NCBI RefSeq assembly: GCF_000382245.1
Contig: NZ_KB907862.1
Span: forward strand, 186,001 to 250,000
Length of the DNA stretch: 64,000 nucleotides
Direction: 5' to 3'
DNA from: Kushneria aurantia DSM 21353
Lineage (GTDB): Bacteria > Pseudomonadota > Gammaproteobacteria > Pseudomonadales > Halomonadaceae
The position numbers and the translations under genes were made by a program. Under the pieces are notes generated by a model. The model worked only from the letters and a program-made list of their open reading frames with translations. It was not told the origin of the DNA and ran no database searches. The first letter of the stretch is position 1; every line of letters begins with the position of its first letter. Below, piece by piece: positions 16,597 to 28,988 of this stretch.

Positions 16597-19500
16597 CTAT
16601 CGGCTCCACTGGTTCGACAGCAGTTCAGCCTGCCTGAGAATCAACTCTATGACTTCCGGTGATTTATCCGGCGGGTACTTGTAGCGCTGCAGCGTCCGGC
16701 GCACCAGAATCCGCAGCCTGGCGCGCACGCTTTCCCGTACCTGCCAATCCACAGTGGTCGAGCTGCGAAGCTTATTGGTTACTTCTACTGCCAACGCCCT
16801 TAGCCTGTCGTCACCCAGCTCGCGTACCGCGCTTTCGTTGGTGATCAAGGCGTCGTAAAAAGCGATCTCGTCAGGGTTCAGGCCCAACGCCTCGTCGCGC
16901 TCCATATCGGCCTTGAACTGCCTGGCCATCTCAATCAGCTCTTCGATCACCTGCGCCGTTTCGATACCGCGATTGTTGTACTTGCGCAGCGTCTCCTGCA
17001 AACGATCCGAGTACTTTTTCTCCTGCACGGCGTTGGTGCGCGTTCTGGCCTTGATGTCGTCCTTGAGCAGTTTTTCCAAAAGCTCGACGGCCAGATTGCG
17101 ATGCGGCATCTGGCGCACATCTTCGAGAAACTCATCGGAGAGCAGCCCGATATTGGGCTTTTCGAGCCCGCAAAGCGCAAACACATCCGTCACATCGTCG
17201 GCCTTCACGGCGTTATCGAGAATCTGCTTGAGCGCCGAGTTCTTCTGCGCCTCGCTCAGCGAGCGGTTCGTACTGGTATGTTTGACCAGCGCCGTCTTGA
17301 TGGCCGAGAGAAACGCGATTTCCTTGTGCAGCGCTCTGGCTTCATCCAGCGTGCTGCACAGCGAATACGCCTTGGTGAGTTGCAGCATGGTATCAAGAAA
17401 GCGCTTTTTGCCATCGTCGAGGCTCAGGAGGTAGTTGGCTGCCGCCGGTAGCAGTTTGTGCGGTGCTTCTTCGAAGCCGCTGTAGTCGAAGCCTTCACGG
17501 TTGGCGCCCCTGGCAAACATGCCGTGAATAATATCGAGCTTCTCTTCCAGCACCGCGAAGGCTTCTTCGGCGCTGTAGGTGGGCTGCCCCCTGCCGCGCG
17601 AGTCGGTGTAGACCTTGAGGGCATTTTTCAGCTCGTTGGCGATGCCGATGTAGTCGACCACCAGCCCACCGGGCTTGTCCTTGAACACCCGGTTCACGCG
17701 GGCAATGGCCTGCATCAGATTGTGGCCCTTCATGGGCTTGTCGACGTACATGGTATGGCAGCATGGTGCGTCAAAACCGGTCAGCCACATATCGCGCACG
17801 ATCACCAGCTTGAGCGGGTCGGCCGGGTTCTTGAAGCGCTTCTCCAGCCGCTTTTTGGTGGCTTTGTTGTAGATATGGGGTGTCAGCAGCGCACTGTCGG
17901 CGGCCGAGCCGGTCATGATGACCTTGATCGCGCCCTTTTCCGGGTCGTCGTCGTGCCAGTCCGGGCGGAGCTTGACGATTTCGCTATAGAGCCGGGCGCA
18001 GATGCTGCGGCTCATGGCGACGATCATCGCCTTGCCCTCGATGGCCTGATTGCGCATCTCGAAGTGATCGACGAGGTCCGCGGCGATACGCTGTAGCCGT
18101 GGCTCGGCGCCCATCAGTTTTTCGAGGCGGCTCCACTCGCCCTTGGTGCGCTCCCGGGCGCCGGTATCTTCTTCATCCTTGATGAGATCGTCGACCTGCT
18201 CTGAGAGCTGGTTGATTTCCTCACGGTTGATGTCGAGCCGCGCCAGGCGGGATTCGTAGAAGATCGGCACGGTGGCGCCATCGTCGACGGCGTCCTGAAT
18301 GTCGTAGATCGAGACGTAATCGCCGAAGACGGCGCGGGTGTCCTTGTCCTCACTGGCAATCGGCGTACCGGTAAAGCCAATGAAAGAGGCGTTGGGCAGG
18401 GCATCGCGCATGTGTTTGGCGAAGCCAAAGGTGTACTGGCCGTCCTGCTTAAGCGTGGCTTTCAGGCCGTACTGGCTGCGGTGCGCCTCGTCCGAGATGA
18501 CCACAATATTGTGGCGGCCGTTGAGAATCGGGTGGCCGCGCTCGTCGTCCAGCAGGGCAAACTTCTGTACCGTGGTGAAAATAATGCCGCCGGACTCGCG
18601 CTCGGCGAGCTTCTGGCGCAGGCTCTCGCGGTCTTCGGCCTGGATAGGGTCCTGCTTGAGCAGATCGCGAGCGCTACTGAAAGTGCCGAACAACTGGCCG
18701 TCAAGGTCGTTGCGGTCGGTCACCACGATCAGCGTCGGGTTGTGCATCGCCGGTTGCTGCAACAGCTTGCCCGCGTAGCAGACCATCGAGATGCTCTTGC
18801 CCGAGCCCTGGGTGTGCCATACCACCCCGGCCTTCTTGCTGCCGGGTTCAACTTCATCACCGTAGGTCGCGCGCTTTTCACCAACGCCCGCTGCAGGCTC
18901 TTCGGCGGCAATGACGGTTGCCTTGACTGCCTCACGTACCGCGTGGAACTGGTGATACCCGGCGATCTTCTTGATGACCCGCTCGGCGTCGATCTCGAAC
19001 AGCACGAAATAGCGCAGATAGTCGAGAAACAGCGCCCGGTCGAAAAAACCCCTGACCAGCGTCTCCAATTGCCATTCGAGCAGCGGCTTGTCGTCTTCAT
19101 TCTTGATGGTGCGCCACGGCATGAAGCGCTCCTGATCCGCCGTCAGCGAACCCACCCGCGCGGTGTAGCCATCGCTGATCACCAGCGCTTCGTTAGTGAC
19201 GAACAGATCGGGGATTTCCGTCTTGTAGGTCTGTAGCTGGTTGAAGGCGCCGGTGATATCGGCGGTTTCGCTGCCAGGGCTTTTCAGCTCGATCACCGCC
19301 AACGGCAGGCCGTTGATAAAGGCAATCACATCGGGACGACGCAGTTGCTTGCCACCAGCGATAGTAAATTGATTGATGGCACGAAAGCGGTTGGCATCGA
19401 TTTGGGCAAAATCGATCAGGAAAGCATGGTCGTGCACCTCATGCTCGTCCTGCTTGTAGATGACCGGCACGCCCTCCAACAACAGTTGGTGGAAGGCCCG

Positions 19501-19752
19501 GTTGCTCACAACCGGATCGAGGCTACCTGGCTTCGCCACCAGGCTCATCACCTGCTCCACAGCAGTCTCTGGCAGTTGAGGGTTCAAGCGTCGCACGGCC
19601 GACTCCAGGTCACCCAGCAATATGACCTGACGATAGTCCGGCCGCTCCGGGACATCTCCATCTGGAGCGATATCCGGGCCGCGGCAGGATTCCCAACCAT
19701 TTTCGGCAAACCACGCCAAGCAGAGCTCTTCCAGTTGGCTCTCATTGATCAT
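16597..19752 (-). CDS. hsdR: Type I restriction endonuclease subunit R (HsdR)
   Basis: A 1051-residue motor-nuclease. The N-terminal PD-(D/E)xK nuclease has Asp141 and the ELK of residues 155-157 ([20 protein letters not shown]). Walker A TQGSGKS is at 314-320 and the DEAH box at 421-424. The later helicase motif [20 protein letters not shown] is present, followed by a helical C-terminal domain that docks on HsdM. With HsdM and HsdS it makes the ATP-dependent complex that translocates and cuts unmethylated DNA. The gene looks intact. It overlaps the upstream AlbA gene by 11 bases. A 72-codon fragment homologous to its own N-terminus lies upstream of that gene, at 21682-21900. Confidence 0.96.
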
Positions 19753-21682
19753 GGCCTGGCGCCTCCGTGATATAGGCCTGATGAGGGTGATTTGGCTTGG
19801 TTGGATATCTCAGCTTGAGCCGTCGCGCTCTGACCATGGGCTTTATGTAACGCAAACGCAGGTATTGCTCCGAACGGTTAAGCAGTTGCACCAGCTCATC
19901 CAACTTCAAAGCGCGCTGGGCACACAGCGCCAGGATAACGTTTTCCACTTCTGACTTGGAGGGTTTTGACTTATCTGCCACCGGTGCAGCAATGTCTCGT
20001 AGAGCCTCCAAAGGTACAGAATTGGCTCCCAAAGGTTCAGAGCTCGCCCCCAAAGGTTCAGAGCTCGCCCCCAAAGGTTCAGAGTTAATTAACGAATTTC
20101 CGGTATTCAGCTCCAAAGCACTAGAACCTGGATCGTCGTCCTGCGCGCTCTCCAACTCTGTGAAGATATCTTCCATATGCGCATCAGGTCGGAAATACAC
20201 AGTCCCACGCCCAGCCCCATTCCTTAGGATCAGTTTTTTCTCCACTAATCCTGACAGGAGCTGGCTCAAATCCCGGGGATGGATGTCCAAAATGGTCATC
20301 ATACGCCCGTGATCCACCGTTTTTTCGATAGAGGCCGTTACCAGGACAAGGCGCTCCTGATCTGAAAGACCGGCAAATACCTTTTCACCCAGGGAGTCGC
20401 GAAGCTTGGCCAGCACAGACTCCGGCACCAGGCTAAGCATATGCAGTTCCAGCAGTGTCTGGTCGGAAGGCGTATGCACTTCACGAAGCACGGGCTTACG
20501 CCAGTGCTGGCTTGACCAACCCTGAAAGATCTTGGGGAGCCCCGAACCTGCGTTCTCGCCCAGGCCGATATAGCGAAACATGCTCTGCACCAGCCGATTG
20601 CGGCAGTCGCTGTATCCTCCGGCCATAGCCTGATCTACCGGCACGCGCATTAGGCCGGGGTTGCGAAATCCGAACATGTCGGGTCGTTTGACTACTAGAA
20701 TCGAAGCCCGCCCGGTGTAGTCTGCATGCACGAGGGTATTGACCAAAGCCTCACGTAACGCCTTATGCACCAAGGTATCATCCTGGCGCTGATCACCCTC
20801 GAGAGCGAAAGGCACCTTGAGATCGGCAGTCAGCTTGCGAATCACTCGACGATAGAAGTCGAATACGTTGCCCGACCAGCTACCATCCAGAGTCAGCCGA
20901 TCGACCCAGCGCAGCTCCGCTTTGGGCTCAGGCCGCTCCTGATAGTCGAGCATATAGTTAGGACAGGCCTCGATAATGGCAACCTGCTGTCCGAACATCA
21001 GCAACCCGGCACGGGTAAGTCCCGAGCGTTCGGTTTCCCGATCCTTGCGCCAGCCACCGATTTGATACAGAAATGTCTGTGCATCCAATTGATTCCAGGG
21101 ATGATCCGGCTGCCGATTGGCATACAGTTGGCGATACTGATTGAAGCTGTCGAAATCCAGATCGTCCAGGCCGAAGCCCCTCAGGATCTCGTTGTCGCGG
21201 CTATCTTCGACCTGCTCGGCCAGCATGCGACGTACCTGCTCCTCACTCAGTTGATGATCGGTACTATTAAAGCGACGGTAGCTGCCGGTAAGGGGATTAC
21301 CACTTAGATATACCGGACGCTGCTTGCGAGTAGCCGCAGGGACATGGACATGCACCACAGCCTTGCCTTCAATCTCAAGGATGCGTACCCAACGTTCGCG
21401 CAGCAGGTTAACGCTAACCTTCTGAGAGTTATTAAGTCCGGTCCAGAGTTCGTCGATAACTTTCTGGGTATTGGCAACGCCGGCAAGCTCAAAATGCCCG
21501 CTGGCACGTTCCTTGACACCAAGAAAAATATCGCCGCCTTGAGTATTGGCAAAAGCACTGTAGGTCGGCCAGAACTCCCTGGGCAACGCACCCTTGCCGT
21601 CACGGCCCTGAGCCAGCTTGCACTCGACGTCCACGCTTTCACGCAGCGCGGCGATATCTTCCAGGGAATCGATTTCAAGCAT
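19742..21682 (-). CDS. AlbA/schlafen-type ATP-binding protein linked to the R-M system
   Basis: A 646-residue protein. Residues about 10-130 match the AlbA_2/schlafen-like domain ([20 protein letters not shown], then [15 protein letters not shown]). Residues about 310-390 match a GHKL-type ATPase fold ([35 protein letters not shown]). A winged-helix region follows. Near residues 550-575 there is a seven-residue repeat (EPLGASS), and a C-terminal helix-turn-helix-like domain closes the protein. Such proteins are common companions of type I R-M loci; their role is unknown, possibly regulatory or anti-phage. Its ATG shares a base with the stop of the upstream hsdR remnant (TAATG) and its end overlaps hsdR. 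Confidence 0.85.
20009..20085. repeat. 21-bp tandem repeat inside the AlbA/schlafen gene
   Basis: Copies of a 21-base unit start with CAAAGG at 20009, 20030, 20051 and 20072. The middle two are identical over CAAAGGTTCAGAGCTCGCC and the outer ones are variants. Read on the minus strand the unit encodes EPLGASS, and 21 bp keeps the frame. It forms a linker before the C-terminal winged helix. Copy number could vary by slippage. Confidence 0.85.
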
Positions 21683-21900
21683 TAAAGGCCTCGGCAGTCC
21701 ATGTCACACTCTGCCGAATCTGGCAGTTGCTGGTTTATCTTTACGATGCCCCCACCGAGATCAGCTCGCAACAGCATTTGCCGGTAGTCCTCTCGCTCCG
21801 GCGATGCGCCGTCGTGGGCGATATCCGGCCCGTGGGCGGTTTCCCAGCTGTTTTCGGTGAACCACTCAAGGCAGAGCTGCTCCAGTTGATTTTCGGTCAT
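21682..21900 (-). pseudogene. Truncated hsdR 5' remnant
   Basis: A 72-codon frame whose first 63 residues are a paralogue of the intact HsdR N-terminus. Starting from E-x-QLE, about 35 of 61 aligned residues agree, including GPDIA-DG, PER-DYRQ and QLP. Similarity stops abruptly and the frame ends after ten unrelated residues. AAGGAG precedes its ATG at 21900, so it may still be translated and couple initiation to the AlbA gene. It is best explained as the front of a former hsdR whose body was replaced by the AlbA-hsdR cassette. A longer start at 21957 is possible. Confidence 0.85.
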
Positions 21901-21980
21901 GCCCCGCTCCTTGCCACCCGCTGAACTGCCAACGTCCGTTGACACGTTTTGTGTCATCGCTATACTTCACCGTAATACGC

Positions 21981-22016
21981 CCGGCGCCTCTTCACAGTTC
22001 ACTGTGTACGCGCCGG
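21981..22016. other. Two-part hairpin between Abi gene and hsdR remnant
   Basis: CCGGCGC (21981-21987) pairs with GCGCCGG (22010-22016), and an inner CACAG-TTCA-CTGTG (21993-22006) can pair too. No T-run follows on either strand within ten bases, so a simple terminator is less likely. A second small palindrome TGACAC-GTTTT-GTGTCA lies at 21940-21956. Possible roles are an RNA element of the operon or a promoter operator. Confidence 0.5.
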
Positions 22017-22041
22017 TTCTCGTTTTGCCTTCCTGAATCGC

Positions 22042-23007
22042 TCACCTCCAGAGCGCCCACGCCTGCCAGTCGTCGATCACACCAACATCTCGAAGCGTGA
22101 CCGCACCAGACGCCGTCTGCGGGAAATCCGCCATCAGCTTACGGAAGCGCTGATGCCATCGTGAGTTCGGGCAAATGATCCGCATCAGCTTCTGCATCAA
22201 GCAGAAATAGAAAAAGGGCCGCGCATTGTTCAACGTCTGCCAATAGGCGTCGTCGGCAAGCGGGGCCGAACGCTCCAGTACGTTGATGTTCCAGAGGCGG
22301 CTGTGATGCGCCGAAACGTTACGGATGAAATTCAAACTCCGCAGCCACTCCGCCAATGCTCGGCCACTCGTCGCGCCGTATTTGGCGGCGATCCGATCCT
22401 GATCCGGTTGTTTCATGCCGGCGTAGAGCTTGGACATCATGCCGAAATCCCACACCTCGACCGCGACCCAGATCGGCAACCGGCCATACTTGCTGAGATA
22501 ATGCGCGACGAAGGGTTCACGGCGGGCGCGGTGTAAGTGCTGATGATATTTTTCCAGCCACAATTGATGTTGCGTCTTGTCCTTGGCCTTGCCTTTTTTC
22601 AGCAGTTGCTTACTGAAATGGCCATGCAGACACTGTGGATTTTCGTGGGCATGAATGTCCTGCTCACCCAGTAGGTGCGCAATATCCACCCGCAGCGCCA
22701 TTTCGATGCGCTCGAGGGCATCGAGTGCCAGCAGGCGCAGCTTCTTGTCGAACACATAGAGATCGACCACTTCGCGAAAATGGCTATCGGCCACGAAGGC
22801 GTTAAGACGGCGCTTCACCAGCCGGCCGTCGTCATCCTGTGAGATTTCCAACTGCCGGAACGGATACCAATACCCGCTGAGCCGGTAGTAGCCGATCCGT
22901 GCCAGATAGCTCAACGCCGCCTCCCGGTCATCGACCTGCAGGCCACGCTCTACCAAAATCGCGAGCTGCTCTTCAAACGATTTCCATGGCTTGGCCGCTG
23001 GGGTCAC
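22042..23007 (-). CDS. Abi-family (AbiD/AbiF, Abi_2) protein with HEPN-type motifs
   Basis: A 321-residue protein of the Abi_2 abortive-infection family. It shows the family opening KSFEEQLAILVERGL with YYRLSGYWYPFR, and two R-x4-H motifs. The first is RVDIAH at 106-111 following ALERIEMAL; the second is RNVSAH at 229-234 followed by HSRLWN. R-x4-H is the catalytic signature of HEPN ribonucleases, and Abi_2 proteins have been linked to this fold. It starts with GTG at 23007, overlapping the hsdS stop by four bases (GTGA). It is thus embedded in the hsd operon between S and R. Toxic RNase activity triggered by phage is inference. Confidence 0.85.
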   Translation of the reverse strand: MTPAAKPWKSFEEQLAILVERGLQVDDREAALSYLARIGYYRLSGYWYPFRQLEISQDDDGRLVKRRLNAFVADSHFREVVDLYVFDKKLRLLALDALERIEMALRVDIAHLLGEQDIHAHENPQCLHGHFSKQLLKKGKAKDKTQHQLWLEKYHQHLHRARREPFVAHYLSKYGRLPIWVAVEVWDFGMMSKLYAGMKQPDQDRIAAKYGATSGRALAEWLRSLNFIRNVSAHHSRLWNINVLERSAPLADDAYWQTLNNARPFFYFCLMQKLMRIICPNSRWHQRFRKLMADFPQTASGAVTLRDVGVIDDWQAWALWR

Positions 23008-24371
23008 GCCGTGACCTCTGATTGTGTTTCTTCGGCTTCCGAGGTCGTCAGCTCGCCGGAGAGGAGTCTAGGGAGGAGAGTGTCTCGCATCGCAGCAAGC
23101 GAAGCTAGCTCTTCACTATTTAACTTGATTTGCTCATCAAGAGCTTTGGCAGCCTTTTGAAAAGAAAACAGCACCTCATGAGGTGGTACAAGCTGCGAGA
23201 CATCCTTAAGATTTTTTTGATTTATAGAACCAAATACCGTTCCTTCAGAATCATACGGCGAAAGCTCATGACCAAGCTGAATGACAGAATAGTAAGTGAA
23301 AGATGAGCAGCCGGATTTATGTCTAATCGCTGCCAAGCCACGTCCAATACAGCAGTCAATTAAAGCGATGTTGGCATCACCTACAGGGGCGCGCACACTC
23401 AGAAGTGTATCGCCCTGCCTTGCCATTCGCTTAGGTTGAGTACAGTAAACTCGATTAGTCGGAAATCTATCTCCGAAATCTCTACGCCCTTGGAAGAATG
23501 GTATACCTTCTCCGGTTTCATTATAGGTATTTCCGGGTGGAGATTGGCCCATAGTCACATCAAACTCTCTGCCGACCGTTGATACCTCCCACCCCTCCGG
23601 AATCTCTCCCAGCTCACTCGGCTGCATTGCCGAGGGAAACAGCGCGGCGGTATCATACAATTCCTGGTAGCGCTCGGGCTCTTCCTCACGCAGCGCGTCG
23701 AGCTCCGCCGCCGTCTTGCCGGATATCGCCTGCATCGCAGCGCGGTTCATAATCGTTTCCAGATCGCCAACCGCGGGCGGCTCGTCCAGCTCGGCGGCGT
23801 AGTAGACTGGGGATGCGGGTTCATTGTCTGGGTGGAGCGCCCACCACCGCTCGCGCGCGGCGATCCTGGCCTTGACCGGCTCGAAATCGACAAACCAGCT
23901 TTTGAAGAGGGCCTGGGCCATCTGTTCGAGGGTTTGGTTGATTTGGTGGTTAATTTGAATTTTGTCGTCGAGATTTCCGAGTATTTCGACGATGCGATTT
24001 TGTTCTGAAAGCGGTGGCAAATTTAGCTCAAACTTAGAGCAATCTGGAACCCGTATATGACTGACTACTGATCCAGTACCGTCATGCACCCGAAACTGAT
24101 TTTGAAGATCCGCCGACAAGAAGGAATAAAGTAAGAATCTAGGGTGGAGAACGTCCTTATCGACACGGTACTGCATAATCCTTTGTCCTAAAAATACAGT
24201 ATCGCTGAAGTCAACCAAGCCCACCTCTCCCATAGGGGCTTCTCTGGTGAGCAAAATATCATCTGGTTCGACGGTGGCCCTTCTCGTCCACTTTTGGTAA
24301 GTATCCTTTTCAACGTAGCGGCAATTCGTAAGGTCTATTCGACCGTTACGAATATTAGGCGTCCGAATCAT
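23004..24371 (-). CDS. hsdS: Type I R-M specificity subunit HsdS, 5' end cut off by IS1380
   Basis: The remaining frame has 455 codons from the ATG at 24371. Two target-recognition domains are visible (about 1-120 and 260-400), with the central conserved helices LPPLSEQNRIVEILGNLDDK and the closing repeat with DTLLPRLLSGEL. Upstream of this ATG the same frame stays open and HsdS-like (ending QVSYATPYK) to the IS end, then meets a stop in the IS repeat. The authentic start ATG lies on the other side of the IS, overlapping hsdM. The protein, if made, lacks its first 35 residues and has no clear ribosome site. Loss of function or altered specificity is likely. It overlaps the Abi gene. Confidence 0.88.
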   Translation of the reverse strand: MIRTPNIRNGRIDLTNCRYVEKDTYQKWTRRATVEPDDILLTREAPMGEVGLVDFSDTVFLGQRIMQYRVDKDVLHPRFLLYSFLSADLQNQFRVHDGTGSVVSHIRVPDCSKFELNLPPLSEQNRIVEILGNLDDKIQINHQINQTLEQMAQALFKSWFVDFEPVKARIAARERWWALHPDNEPASPVYYAAELDEPPAVGDLETIMNRAAMQAISGKTAAELDALREEEPERYQELYDTAALFPSAMQPSELGEIPEGWEVSTVGREFDVTMGQSPPGNTYNETGEGIPFFQGRRDFGDRFPTNRVYCTQPKRMARQGDTLLSVRAPVGDANIALIDCCIGRGLAAIRHKSGCSSFTYYSVIQLGHELSPYDSEGTVFGSINQKNLKDVSQLVPPHEVLFSFQKAAKALDEQIKLNSEELASLAAMRDTLLPRLLSGELTTSEAEETQSEVTA

Positions 24372-24467
24372 TTTATACGGAGTTGCGTAGCTTACCTGCG
24401 GAGCGGTCTTATTGACACAGTCAATTATTAGCTCACATACATCTCTGATTTGAACTCGATTCCACTT
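24372..24467 (-). pseudogene. Stranded codons 4-35 of hsdS
   Basis: In frame with the hsdS body and free of stops, this encodes KWNRVQIRDVCELIIDC and, further on, QVSYATPYK, an HsdS-like beginning of target-recognition domain 1. No ATG, GTG or TTG codon occurs in the segment, so translation cannot restart inside it. Confidence 0.8.
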
Positions 24468-24469
24468 AG
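24466..24469. repeat. Target-site duplication TTAG (left copy)
   Basis: TTAG directly abuts the left inverted repeat of the IS and is repeated at 26028-26031 after the right inverted repeat. A four-base duplication fits the IS1380 family. Confidence 0.9.
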
Positions 24470-26027
24470 CCCGAATTTCTCACGGGGTATAAAAGAAAGC
24501 GGCTGAAAGTGCTATGATTTCAAGAACCTAACCAATCCATCAAACACCCACAGCCGCTTCCAAAATGGTACCTGAAAAACTGACCTTCTCGCCACTCTCA
24601 CGCCGCCAAATTGAAGCCGATTTCTCCGGGGGACACATCACCTCGGATGCGGGGTTGCTCCTGCTACGGAAAGTCGACAAGCAACATCGCCTGACGCACC
24701 GTCTCGCGTCGGCGCTTCATGATCCCCGGACACCGGAACAGGTTCGTCACAAGCTCGACACCCTGGTTCGTCAGCGGGTGTTCGGTGTCGCCGCTGGCTA
24801 TGAAGATTTCAACGACCATGACGCCCTGCGCTATGATCAAGCTCTTCAGACGGCGCTGGGTGAAGAGGAAACGCTGGCGGGCAAGTCGACGTTGTGCCGG
24901 ATAGAGCAGAACGCGGATCGGCAAGCGATGGTGAAGGCCCATGAGTTACTTTGGCATCACTTCATTGAACAGCATGACGAACCACCGAAAGAGATCGTGC
25001 TGGACTTTGATGGCACGGACATCCCGGTTCATGGTGAGCAACCCGGCAAGTTCTTTAACCGCTATTACGATCACCACTGCTACTTCCCGCTGTATGTCTT
25101 CTGTGGGCGCCACTTGTTGGTGAGCTATCTGCGCACCAGTGACCGCAGCGACAGCCGACATAGCTGGGCCATCCTTGCCTTGCTGGTAAGGTTTATCCGC
25201 CAGTACTGGCCCGATACACAGATCGTGTTACGGGGCGATAGCCACTTTTGTCGCCCCCGGATGCTGAACTGGTGTGATCGGCATCACGTCGACTACATCG
25301 TGGGTATCGGCAAGAACAGCCGGCTGCTCAAGGAAGTGGACGTCCCCATGATGCTGGTGCGCAAGACCCAGTGGCAGGTGGGCGGAAAAGTAGCGGGGAC
25401 GTTCCGCTTCCAGTATCAAGCCCACTCCTGGAAATACCCTCGCTGGGTGGTGGCCCGTCTGGAAGAAGGCGAACGGGGTTCCAACCCCCGGTTTATCATC
25501 AGTTCCCGTTACGACGACGGCTTCAAGCTTTACTACGAGCAGTACTGTGCTCGAGGCGACATGGAAAACCGGATCAAGGATCAACAACTGAGCCTGTTCG
25601 CTGATCGCACTTCCAGTACGCACTGGTGGGCCAATCAGTGGCGGCTGATCTTGTCGGGGTTCGCCTATACGCTGTTCGAGCGGTTACGGACTTACCTGAA
25701 GAGCACGTCCTTCGCGCGTATGAGCCCGAGTAACCTGAGGCTCAAACTCATCAAAGTGGGCGCGGTCATCATCCGTAATACGCGTCGCGTCCGAGTGCTG
25801 ATGAGTGACAGCTATCCCTATAAAACGGCGTTATCCGATCTCGTCAGACGGTTGGTACCGAGCTGAATGCACGGGCGCCCCCGGCCCGATGCAATGGGGG
25901 AAAGGGGGCAGTGTGCCTGAACGACGGGAAGTGGTTAAAAAGCAGGCAGCGTAAGTGGAGCCAAGAGGTGTTTAGCTGTGTTACAGCCTGAGCGCGGTAC
26001 TGGCTGAGGTGCTATGAGAAATTCGGG
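24470..26027 (+). mobile_element. IS1380-family insertion sequence, 1558 bp, complete
   Basis: Bounded by perfect 13-bp inverted repeats CCCGAATTTCTCA (24470-24482) and its complement (26015-26027), flanked by TTAG duplications. One transposase gene lies inside. It is inserted against the direction of the hsd operon, exactly in the 11-bp overlap between the end of hsdM and the start of hsdS. The hsdM stop codon survives because it lies in the duplicated target. Confidence 0.95.
24565..25866 (+). CDS. IS1380-family transposase
   Basis: A 433-residue DDE transposase. Recognisable segments are FSGGHITSDAGLLLLRKVD near the start, VLDFDGTDIPVHGEQPG (first Asp), IVLRGDSHFCRP (second Asp) and ARGDMENRIKDQQLSLFADR (Glu). 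All three catalytic regions and full length are present, so the element may be active. It reads opposite to the flanking hsd genes. Confidence 0.95.
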   Translation: MVPEKLTFSPLSRRQIEADFSGGHITSDAGLLLLRKVDKQHRLTHRLASALHDPRTPEQVRHKLDTLVRQRVFGVAAGYEDFNDHDALRYDQALQTALGEEETLAGKSTLCRIEQNADRQAMVKAHELLWHHFIEQHDEPPKEIVLDFDGTDIPVHGEQPGKFFNRYYDHHCYFPLYVFCGRHLLVSYLRTSDRSDSRHSWAILALLVRFIRQYWPDTQIVLRGDSHFCRPRMLNWCDRHHVDYIVGIGKNSRLLKEVDVPMMLVRKTQWQVGGKVAGTFRFQYQAHSWKYPRWVVARLEEGERGSNPRFIISSRYDDGFKLYYEQYCARGDMENRIKDQQLSLFADRTSSTHWWANQWRLILSGFAYTLFERLRTYLKSTSFARMSPSNLRLKLIKVGAVIIRNTRRVRVLMSDSYPYKTALSDLVRRLVPS

Positions 26028-26031
26028 TTAG
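26028..26031. repeat. Target-site duplication TTAG (right copy)
   Basis: Matches the left copy at 24466-24469. On the minus strand it supplies the TAA stop of hsdM. Confidence 0.9.
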
Positions 26032-27746
26032 AGCTCATACCCCAGCCCCCCAAGATTCCGCTTGATCTCCGCTTCCAGCCGGTCACTTTCCTCGAATTGC
26101 TCTTTCAACTGCGCTGTCAGCCGCGCCATCTTATCGGCGAAGGGTTCGCCGTCTTCTTCCTGCGCGGCGGCGCCCACGTAGCGCCCTGGCGTCAACACGA
26201 AATCGTGTTTTTCGATGGCGGCGAGATCGGCGGAGGCGCAGAAGCCCGGTACGTCTTCAAACGCGTCGGTGCGCTGCCAGGTATGGAAAATGTCGGTGAC
26301 TCTGGCGATATCTTCACGGGTGAAGTCGCGCAGTACGCGGTCGCGCATATAGCCCTGCTGGCGGGCGTCGATAAACAGCACCTCCCCCTTGCGACGACGC
26401 TTCTCGACACCGTTGGGTGAAAGACCACCGGTTTTGTCGCGGGTCAGAAACCAGATGCAGGCGGGAATCTGGGTGTTGGTAAAGAGCTGGCCCGGCAGGG
26501 CGACGATGCACTCGACCAGATCTTTCTCGACGAGGCGGCGGCGAATCTCACCCTCGCCGCCGCTGTTGGAACTCATCGAGCCGTTGGCGAGCAGCAGCGC
26601 CATGCTGCCCACGGGGGCAAGGTGGTGCAGCATGTGCTGCAGCCAGGCGAAGTTGGCATTGCCTTTTGGCGGGGTGCCGTACTGCCAGCGTACATCCTCG
26701 GCCAGCGACTCGTGCCACCAGTCCTTGACGTTGAACGGCGGATTGGCCATCACGAAGTCGGCGCGCAGGTCCGGGTGCTGGTCATCGAGAAAGCTGTCGG
26801 CGTTTTTCCTGCCGAAGTTGAAGTCGATGCCGCGAATGGCCATGTTCATAGCGGCCAGCCGCCAGGTGGTGGGGTTGGACTCCTGACCGTAAATGGACAC
26901 GTGCTTCTTCTGCTCGGCGGGGTCGTAGTGGTGTTCTCGGGCGTGCTCTTCGATGAACTTGTCCGACGACACAAAGAACCCCCCGGAGCCCATCGCCGGG
27001 TCATACACCCGGCCCTTGTAGGGCTCCAGCATCTCGACGATCAGCGAGACGATGCTTTTTGGCGTGTAGTACTGCCCACCCTGCTTGCCTTCAGCAAGGG
27101 CAAACTGACCGAGGAAGTACTCGTAGACGTGGCCGAGAATGTCCTTGCTGCGCAGGTTAATCGGCTTGCCATTGAGCGTCGGCTGGGTAAAAGAGGTATC
27201 CGAGAAGGAGTTGATCAACCCGATCAGCTTGTCGTTATCGACCTGAAAGCGGCTGATGCCTTCCAGCACGCCCTTGAGCTTGTCGTTGCTCTTTTCGATG
27301 GCCTCCAGGGCGTTGTCGATCAGCCAGCTCACCGAGCGCAGGCGCACGTCTTCGCCCTTGCTGTTCTGCCAGAGCACCGAGCCAATGGGTAGTGCGGCGC
27401 TCTCTTTCAGCGTGCTCCAGCGCGCCTCTTTCGGCACCCAGAACACGTTGGCCTCGCGGTAGTAATCGAGGATTTCCAGCTCATCATTGAGCGCCTGCTC
27501 GTACTCGGCGTCGCTGTCGTAATCCTCGCGCGGCAGGTAGTAGATGTTGTCGTCGGCGTCATCCTTGAACAGCGCGAGCAGCTCGCGCTGGCGTTCCTCG
27601 AAAGCATCGGAGACATACTTCAGAAAGATCAGCCCCAGCACCACGTGCTTGTAGTTGGCGGCATCCAGGTTGTTGCGCAGCTTGTCCGCGGCTTTCCAGA
27701 GCTTGTCCTCGAGCGCCGTCAGAAATTTGTGCTCAGTATCGTCCAC
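26028..27746 (-). CDS. hsdM: Type I R-M methyltransferase subunit HsdM
   Basis: About 572 residues. The N-terminal helical domain (EDKLWKAADKLRNNLDAANY) is followed by the N6-adenine methyltransferase core, with the AdoMet motif DPAMGSGG near residues 249-256 and the catalytic NPPF near 335-338. It methylates adenines at sites chosen by HsdS. The GTG at 27746 is preferred because GAGG lies five bases upstream and homologues begin near DDTEHK; an ATG at 27779 would add 11 residues. The gene is intact, its TAA lying in the IS target duplication. Without HsdS neither methylation nor restriction by this system is expected. Confidence 0.94.
   Translation of the reverse strand: MDDTEHKFLTALEDKLWKAADKLRNNLDAANYKHVVLGLIFLKYVSDAFEERQRELLALFKDDADDNIYYLPREDYDSDAEYEQALNDELEILDYYREANVFWVPKEARWSTLKESAALPIGSVLWQNSKGEDVRLRSVSWLIDNALEAIEKSNDKLKGVLEGISRFQVDNDKLIGLINSFSDTSFTQPTLNGKPINLRSKDILGHVYEYFLGQFALAEGKQGGQYYTPKSIVSLIVEMLEPYKGRVYDPAMGSGGFFVSSDKFIEEHAREHHYDPAEQKKHVSIYGQESNPTTWRLAAMNMAIRGIDFNFGRKNADSFLDDQHPDLRADFVMANPPFNVKDWWHESLAEDVRWQYGTPPKGNANFAWLQHMLHHLAPVGSMALLLANGSMSSNSGGEGEIRRRLVEKDLVECIVALPGQLFTNTQIPACIWFLTRDKTGGLSPNGVEKRRRKGEVLFIDARQQGYMRDRVLRDFTREDIARVTDIFHTWQRTDAFEDVPGFCASADLAAIEKHDFVLTPGRYVGAAAQEEDGEPFADKMARLTAQLKEQFEESDRLEAEIKRNLGGLGYEL
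26036..26038 (-). other. Severed native start codon of hsdS
   Basis: Joining the two IS flanks at the target duplication recreates ATGAGCTCTAAGTGG in frame with the stranded hsdS codons, that is M-S-S-K-W. This ATG overlaps the 3' end of hsdM by 11 bases, a normal coupling arrangement for hsdM-hsdS pairs. Confidence 0.85.
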
Positions 27747-27821
27747 ATCTACCTCACAAAATGTACAGTCCCGAAACATTCAAGGAGCTGTTTCCGATAT
27801 TATCAGTGAAGATTTTCTCGA

Positions 27822-28988
27822 TCAGTTCGTGTCGCGACTCAACAATTCGATATAGCCACGATACGCAAACACTCGATTGCGCCTGTTGCCGGTCAATTCC
27901 TGCACCATACCCAGCTGCGTCTCCAATCCTTCCAGCACCCTGCCGATGGTAGCGGGCGTCAGCCCTGTCTCACGTTGAAGCGTGGCGACGTTCGCGATCG
28001 GATGACTGAAAAGGGCCTGCAGCACCTGGTTTGCCGAGCCCGAAAGACGGCCAAGCTCGCTCAGGCGCGCCCTGTCCTGCGCCAGTAGCGCATTCAACGA
28101 CTGCGCCGTGGCAACGGCATGGCGGGCGGTATCGGCGATGGCGTCGACGAAAAAGAGCAACCAGCTTTCCCAATCGCCGGTCAGCCTCACCTGCTGCAGC
28201 TGTTCGTAGTAGGCCTGGCGGTGGCGCTTGAAAAACACCGAAAGGTAAAGCAGCGGCTCGGCAAGAATACCGGCTTGCACCAGAATCAGCGGAATCAGCA
28301 GACGCCCGAGGCGGCCGTTGCCATCCATGAAGGGGTGAATGGTTTCAAACTGAACATGCGCCAGCGCGGCCTTGATAACCGCAGAAGTGGCGACGGGTTC
28401 ATCATTGAGAAAACGCTCGAAGGCGCTCCAGCAGTCGGCAAGCTGGTTGGCCGGTGGCGGTACGAAAGCCGCCTCGTCGGTGCGATGGCCGCCAATCCAG
28501 ACCTGATTCTGGCGAAACTCGCCCGGTCGGCGGTGCGTGCCACGGCCATTGGTCATCAGTTCCTGATGCAGTTCCAATACCAGGCGAAAGGTGATCGGGT
28601 GACCTTCGCGAATGCGCTGCACCCCCAGGTTGAGCGCGCGCACGTAGCAGGAGACCTCCTGTACGTCGTCCATCGGCACGCCGGGAATGCCGTCCATCTC
28701 GTAGACCATGAGATCGCTTAGCGAGGATTGGGTGCCCTCGATCTGCGAGGACATCACGGCTTCCTTGCGCACATAGCTGTAGAGGAAAAGCTGCGTATCC
28801 GGCAGCAGTGTCGAGATACCGTCCAGTCGCCCCAGCGCGACGAGCGCCTGCGAAAGACGCTCCTGCAGCTTGTTGTCCAGCAAAAGCGGCGGATCGGGCG
28901 GTAGCGGTGCCGGCACGAAGGCGCGGCAGCTTACGCCACCGGCGATGCCGGGAAGGTAATGGCCTGTCACCCCACGCTGCATGGGCAT
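27822..28988 (-). CDS. Fic-family protein with C-terminal winged helix
   Basis: A 388-residue protein. The AMP-transferase motif HPFMDGNGRLGR is complete at 218-229. An inhibitory-helix motif SSQIEG (80-85, with Glu84) lies on the N-terminal side, as in class II Fic proteins that keep themselves inactive. Residues about 335-388 look like a winged helix-turn-helix (NVATLQRETGLTPATIGRVL). Fic enzymes transfer AMP or similar groups to target proteins. It is the first gene of the leftward defence block, 75 bp before hsdM. Two tandem inverted repeats sit immediately upstream, suggesting autoregulation through its own DNA-binding domain. Confidence 0.9.
   Translation of the reverse strand: MPMQRGVTGHYLPGIAGGVSCRAFVPAPLPPDPPLLLDNKLQERLSQALVALGRLDGISTLLPDTQLFLYSYVRKEAVMSSQIEGTQSSLSDLMVYEMDGIPGVPMDDVQEVSCYVRALNLGVQRIREGHPITFRLVLELHQELMTNGRGTHRRPGEFRQNQVWIGGHRTDEAAFVPPPANQLADCWSAFERFLNDEPVATSAVIKAALAHVQFETIHPFMDGNGRLGRLLIPLILVQAGILAEPLLYLSVFFKRHRQAYYEQLQQVRLTGDWESWLLFFVDAIADTARHAVATAQSLNALLAQDRARLSELGRLSGSANQVLQALFSHPIANVATLQRETGLTPATIGRVLEGLETQLGMVQELTGNRRNRVFAYRGYIELLSRDTN

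Follow-up and report, generated by a model that had tools for sequence, protein, structure and literature searches.

Locus organisation and the IS1380-family element

hsdR, hsdM and hsdS, which together encode a type I restriction-modification system, are neighbours on contig NZ_KB907862.1 of Kushneria aurantia DSM 21353 (GCF_000382245.1). The stretch analysed here, called the window in the following, comprises 64,000 nucleotides of this contig (positions 186,001 to 250,000), and unlabelled coordinates are counted from its first letter. At the junction of hsdM and hsdS an insertion sequence (IS) of the IS1380 family is located, which separates hsdS from its original start codon. The features of this junction are the following:

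24470–26027, plus strand: IS1380-family insertion sequence of 1,558 bp (ends, repeats and flanks read from the sequence, family by NCBIfam and Pfam)
24565–25866, plus strand: IS1380 transposase, 433 amino acids (aa), intact (open reading frame and profile matches)
24466–24469, no strand: left TTAG copy of the target duplication, a YTAR site (Y, pyrimidine; R, purine)
26028–26031, no strand: right TTAG copy of the target duplication, containing the hsdM stop codon (26028–26030)
26028–26038, minus strand: 11 bp shared by hsdM and hsdS, containing the hsdS ATG at its original place (26036–26038); the same overlap exists in the congener G008
23004–24467, minus strand: hsdS without its first three codons; first ATG, GTG or TTG at 24371, leaving an open reading frame (ORF) of 455 aa (23004–24371); two PF01420 matches and an HsdS fold
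26028–27779, minus strand: hsdM, 583 aa, intact (N6_Mtase 367.5 bits, HsdM_N 79.6 bits)

The element is bordered by identical 13-bp terminal inverted repeats (24470–24482 and 26015–26027; CCCGAATTTCTCA). Its transposase reaches 391.5 bits with the NCBIfam profile NF033539 'IS1380 family transposase' (cut-off 180) and 522 bits with PF13701 (DDE_Tnp_1_4), above the Pfam cut-off; together with the CC..GG termini and the 4-bp target duplication this places the element in the IS1380 family. The assembly of 61 contigs contains one full-length copy. In addition, a 149-bp relic of the left end of a related IS1380 element (91 % identical) is present on contig C5 (L002, C5:110940–111088) beside a CTAG. 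The closest full-length copies within the host family show 86–90 % identity over the IS. Short end fragments aside, a copy reaching 95 % identity was found neither in 275 host-family genomes nor in the plasmid collection, where the best match has 87.4 %. Under the usual naming rule the element is probably a new named IS. ISMaq4- and ISPa33-like relatives on plasmids belong to the same transposase family and have similar lengths and ends. In viral contigs no relatives were found with the single transposase sequence as query, and eight loci with relatives of the transposase were found with an alignment as query.

The insertion site lies within the 11-bp overlap. The TAA stop codon of hsdM falls within the right TTAG copy, and because the four target bases are duplicated, hsdM retains its stop codon. 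The frame starting from the original hsdS ATG (26038) now comprises only eight codons and ends inside the IS. On the other side, the hsdS frame upstream of the kept codons runs into a TGA within the IS (24480–24482). Between this TGA and position 24371 there is no ATG, GTG or TTG in the hsdS frame, so the first ordinary start comes 35 codons late; the rarer starts ATT, ATC and ATA are present in this segment. Directly before 24371 no Shine-Dalgarno-like motif was seen by eye. Against TIGR00497 hsdM scores 148.4 bits, below the cut-off of 242.75.

A first-pass annotation, made from the letters of the window alone, had described an IS1380 element with 13-bp repeats and TTAG duplications in the hsdM/hsdS overlap, an intact hsdM with its stop codon in the target duplication, and an hsdS that can start only 35 codons late at 24371 without a ribosome site. 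All this agrees with the reading given above. Its interval (24372–26038) is wider than the IS proper (24470–26027), as it also takes in the overlap and those hsdS codons that have lost their start.

The IS-free allele of the congener G008

The hsdS start region was searched in 97 genomes, the own genome included. Three other genomes matched: the congener G008 over 270 of 271 bases at 91 % identity, and two genomes from other families, with matches of just 85 and 27 bases. In G008 hsdM is joined directly to hsdS; hsdM ends at L091:10397 and the hsdS ATG lies at L091:10407, which gives the same 11-bp overlap. When the flanks of the IS in the window are joined end to end, they align with G008 over 2,598 gapless bases at 89.7 % identity. 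Because of this gapless alignment and the identical overlap, the reconstruction of the flanks goes beyond chance. The duplication, the uninterrupted site and the natural hsdS start are thus confirmed at sequence level by an independent genome. The first-pass annotation had claimed that joining the flanks restores the hsdS start in frame, and hsdS of G008 indeed begins at the ATG proposed there; the IS-free allele in a close relative, which it had suggested looking for, is the one in this genus-mate.

The natural start was also compared in homologues, represented by the best 80 of 576 hsdS relatives (L011–L090). In 76 of these 80 loci an in-frame start codon precedes the position equivalent to the 24371 methionine by 20 codons or more; this position is an ungapped estimate, and the presence of a start codon does not prove its use. 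The remaining four (L023, L032, L042, L069) say nothing on this point, since they match only from residue 110 or further on. Homologues that naturally begin at the 24371 methionine, named beforehand as evidence that would speak against a beheaded hsdS, therefore seem not to occur in this set. An 11-bp overlap of hsdS with an upstream frame open over at least 200 codons was found in 41 of the best 80. These 41 loci span widely different taxa, and the overlapping stop is mostly TGA.

Probable consequences for HsdS and the type I system

HsdS is required for both methylation and restriction in type I systems. In the truncated ORF the match to the PADLOC profile Specificity_I (PDLC03086) does not begin until position 40 of the 458 profile positions, and the Pfam profile Methylase_S matches it only from position 49 of 168, compared with position 3 of 168 for the whole hsdS frame. 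An AlphaFold model of the open hsdS frame, built from a 40-sequence alignment, has a predicted local distance difference test score (pLDDT) of 91.2, and in a Foldseek search it matches solved HsdS chains (5ybb, 3okg and 1yf2 are among the first four). Its first strands are formed by residues 3–6, 11–14 and 32–34, and the 24371 methionine corresponds to residue 33. According to this model, a protein begun at 24371 would lack the two strands that open recognition domain 1, together with the following loop.

Searching the genome with Methylase_S gave two matches, both within hsdS of the window; no second hsdS that might act in trans was found. A second N6_Mtase match exists on contig C45 (22.9 bits, in a frame of 1,198 aa). 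The type I gene set is present side by side, and what it lacks is a complete HsdS: the two Methylase_S matches, one for each recognition domain, are there but the gene's own start and the first 35 codons are cut off.

Taken together, a loss-of-function insertion is the explanation that we favour, with a probability of roughly 0.87: a recent IS1380 insertion at the YTAR word TTAG has beheaded hsdS and turned the system off. The element has inserted at the TTAG that holds the hsdM stop within the hsdM/hsdS overlap. The original hsdS ATG has been left on the hsdM side, about 1.6 kb away from the remaining hsdS, where it gives only the eight-codon frame, and the remaining hsdS has no usable start before codon 36. 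According to the favoured explanation a working HsdS would be absent, since no ribosome site is visible ahead of the first ordinary start, whose product would miss the opening two strands of recognition domain 1. As no other hsdS was found, HsdM and HsdR would remain without a specificity subunit, and methylation and restriction would be lost together. This joint loss would spare the cell from cutting its own DNA. Furthermore, the IS may reduce the transcription of downstream genes, and a reversal through precise excision would be possible. Since hsdS is cut from its start and no second copy was found, the system is most likely inactive, and the strain would then show no type I activity of either kind, methylation or restriction.

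The insertion looks recent because the repeats are identical, the transposase is intact, the remaining hsdS frame is open and only a single full-length copy is found in the assembly; the first-pass annotation had likewise called the event recent. Several points weigh against the favoured explanation. In an assembly of 61 contigs further IS copies could be collapsed and an hsdS could be missed in a gap. Weak initiation at ATT, ATC or ATA or at 24371 may occur, and a shortened HsdS may be partly functional. Nonsynonymous (dN) and synonymous (dS) divergence from G008 amount to 0.058 and 0.483 in the portion of hsdS that both genomes share, and to 0.027 and 0.432 in hsdM; the low dN/dS of hsdS mostly reflects the time before the insertion.

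Another explanation is that translation from 24371 or from a rare start still yields a shortened HsdS that works, which would keep the system active and might change its specificity. An open frame of 455 codons is left, and a consensus scan of 24300–26200 found no terminator-like site on the minus strand. Transcription from hsdM may therefore run on leftward through the IS. However, no ribosome site is visible ahead of 24371, the product would lose the initial pair of strands of recognition domain 1, and 76 of the best 80 of 576 homologous loci have start codons further upstream. We regard this explanation as very unlikely and retain the loss of function. The same scan found no promoter-like site on either strand, and an outward IS promoter toward hsdS was rejected on this basis. 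Such promoters are reported for ISPme1 and ISEcp1 (PMC9330008), and ISPme1 is also said to mobilise DNA beside its own 3′ end; the matching end of the IS in the window faces hsdM.

Target choice of the IS and its relatives

The ends of related copies were read in L001, L002, L098–L126 and further stretches except L145, and many weaker matches without a locus were left out. Altogether 69 ends were read, of which 57 were distinct after removal of 12 repeats. A YTAR word abuts 51 of the 57 (CTAG 31, CTAA 11, TTAG 8, TTAA 1); the six other ends abut CTGA, CCAC, TGAG, TTAT, ACTA and TTCA. The target choice at the hsdM stop fits this YTAR preference as read from the sequences. As the hsdS stretch contains 16 YTAR words and hsdM two, the overlap is one target among several.

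Every YTAR word includes TAA or TAG on both strands, and L101, a related copy, lies directly at the TAA that ends a frame of 71 codons, a site for which uninterrupted relatives were found. It could thus be argued that the IS favours stop codons, sparing upstream genes, and hit the hsdM stop for that reason. However, only 6 of the 57 ends adjoin a stop codon that closes a frame of 50 codons or more, compared with 106 of 1,437 (7.4 %) background YTAR strand-sites in the flanks, which is no clear enrichment. Stop-codon targeting was dropped after this background control, and we give it next to no chance of being right.

Copy L101 has two right ends 39 bp apart, and the outer one gives CTAA on both sides, matching the uninterrupted relatives. 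Unequal target duplications might have pointed to an unusual repair mechanism; for L101 the mismatch disappears with this outer end. In L102, L103 (with its repeat L104), L106 and L129 the duplications stay unequal; the flank of L102 was not found in any of the other 81 genomes of the genus that were searched.

Among the open-access papers searched, no earlier report of a YTAR target for IS1380 was found. A search for insertion sequences with stop codons and CTAG or YTAR targets returned papers that, by their titles, mostly concern IS5, and one for ISMaq4, ISPa33 or the IS1380 family with CTAG returned only unrelated material.

Excision and the question of a switch

The first-pass annotation had further interpreted the insertion as an on/off switch. 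In such a switch the IS would excise without a footprint like piggyBac, and populations would be mixtures of cells with the system off (IS in) and on (IS out). The identical 4-bp duplications and repeats, the intact transposase and the open remaining hsdS frame are in line with this. According to one paper, IS1380 and piggyBac are distant relatives that have CC..GG termini and duplications of 4 bp in common (PMC10045372). Animal piggyBac elements flanked by TTAG or CTAA duplications are on record (PMC10813416), and piggyBac excision is reported to be seamless, as hairpin and target share the same four bases (PMC7351741). Given this distant kinship and the seamless excision of piggyBac, precise excision of the IS in the window, and with it a reversal, would be plausible.

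However, only one allele is seen, with no empty site or excision product in the own genome, and G008 displays the uninterrupted state and not a reversal. The structural model of the transposase is poor (pLDDT 59.3); its best structural match is Tn5, and piggyBat follows at rank 8 (E-value 0.003). No solved structure was matched to the transposase by sequence at E-values up to 1. Furthermore, the IS1380 members differ, IS1247 being listed with 5-bp duplications (PMC3281130). Open-access searches for hsdS with precise excision gave no earlier report of such a case in titles and opening lines of abstracts, and those for IS1380 with hsdS gave only unrelated work, judged by the same parts. 'Switch' therefore stands here for a hypothesis, and one that we consider unlikely. 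The same holds for its extended form, which is likewise improbable: a piggyBac-like, YTAR-specific element would act as a two-state switch of the whole type I system, with the duplicated stop keeping HsdM unharmed. If this were true, methylation and restriction would go off and on together by footprint-free excision. A simple loss of function remains the preferred explanation of the locus.

Neighbouring genes and other recombination in the operon

Downstream of hsdS the operon continues with a further feature:

16597–19752, minus strand: hsdR, 1051 aa, frame intact, 5′ part replaced (TIGR00348 612.6 bits, cut-off 284.55; identity step against G008 near codon 150)

In blocks of 25 codons the first 150 codons of hsdR show 56–71 % identity to G008 and the later blocks 80–99 %; beyond base 1600 the identity is 89 %. 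A relic of a G008-like hsdR 5′ end is found at 21784–22020 (87 % identity), and between this relic and hsdR an SLFN_AlbA_2 gene is located (region 19742–22020). This gene has 16 other matches in the family; in six of the seven loci examined hsdR-like sequence adjoins in the same direction. The likely event is the joint import of the SLFN_AlbA_2 gene and a foreign hsdR 5′ end as a two-gene block, through recombination within hsdR, with the relic at 21784–22020 as what remains of the resident 5′ end.

The window and G008 also differ in the second half of hsdS and in the genes that follow. Between hsdS of the window (23004–24371) and that of G008 (L091:8941–10407) recognition domain 1 is common and domain 2 is different, and between hsdS and hsdR the window has an Abi_2 gene where G008 has ORFs of 223 and 391 aa. 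The Abi_2/AbiD-like gene (22042–23007) follows hsdS directly with a 4-base overlap and is possibly silenced by the upstream IS. Just upstream of hsdM lies a Fic-domain gene of the SoFic type (27822–28988), which scores 393 bits with PADLOC SoFic and stays below the NCBIfam cut-off.

Comparison with known systems

The interruption of type I genes by IS elements is already known, and the present case is ordinary in kind and well supported at the level of the sequence. In Staphylococcus epidermidis BPH0736 hsdR is reported to be interrupted by IS elements and methylation to be kept (PMC6918075). There, as here, an IS inactivates one type I gene. However, in K. aurantia the shared subunit hsdS is hit, and methylation and restriction should go together. 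With its uninterrupted allele in a genus-mate, the locus is a clean example of how a type I system may be lost in one step without self-cutting, the shared specificity subunit going first. The pneumococcal SpnIV tvr locus (PMC6265443) resembles it in that both are type I systems altered genetically at hsdS. However, SpnIV-type systems change their specificity by recombination, whereas in the window the only hsdS found has lost its start to a single insertion, and one state is seen.

Like piggyBac, the IS itself has CCC..GGG ends and a target of four bases centred on TA, and TTAA belongs to the YTAR words. However, piggyBac is eukaryotic, and the IS in the window targets YTAR with CTAG as the commonest word. 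This gives a target rule for this IS1380 subgroup, YTAR and most often CTAG, and makes it testable whether the seamless excision of piggyBac is common to bacterial IS1380 elements.

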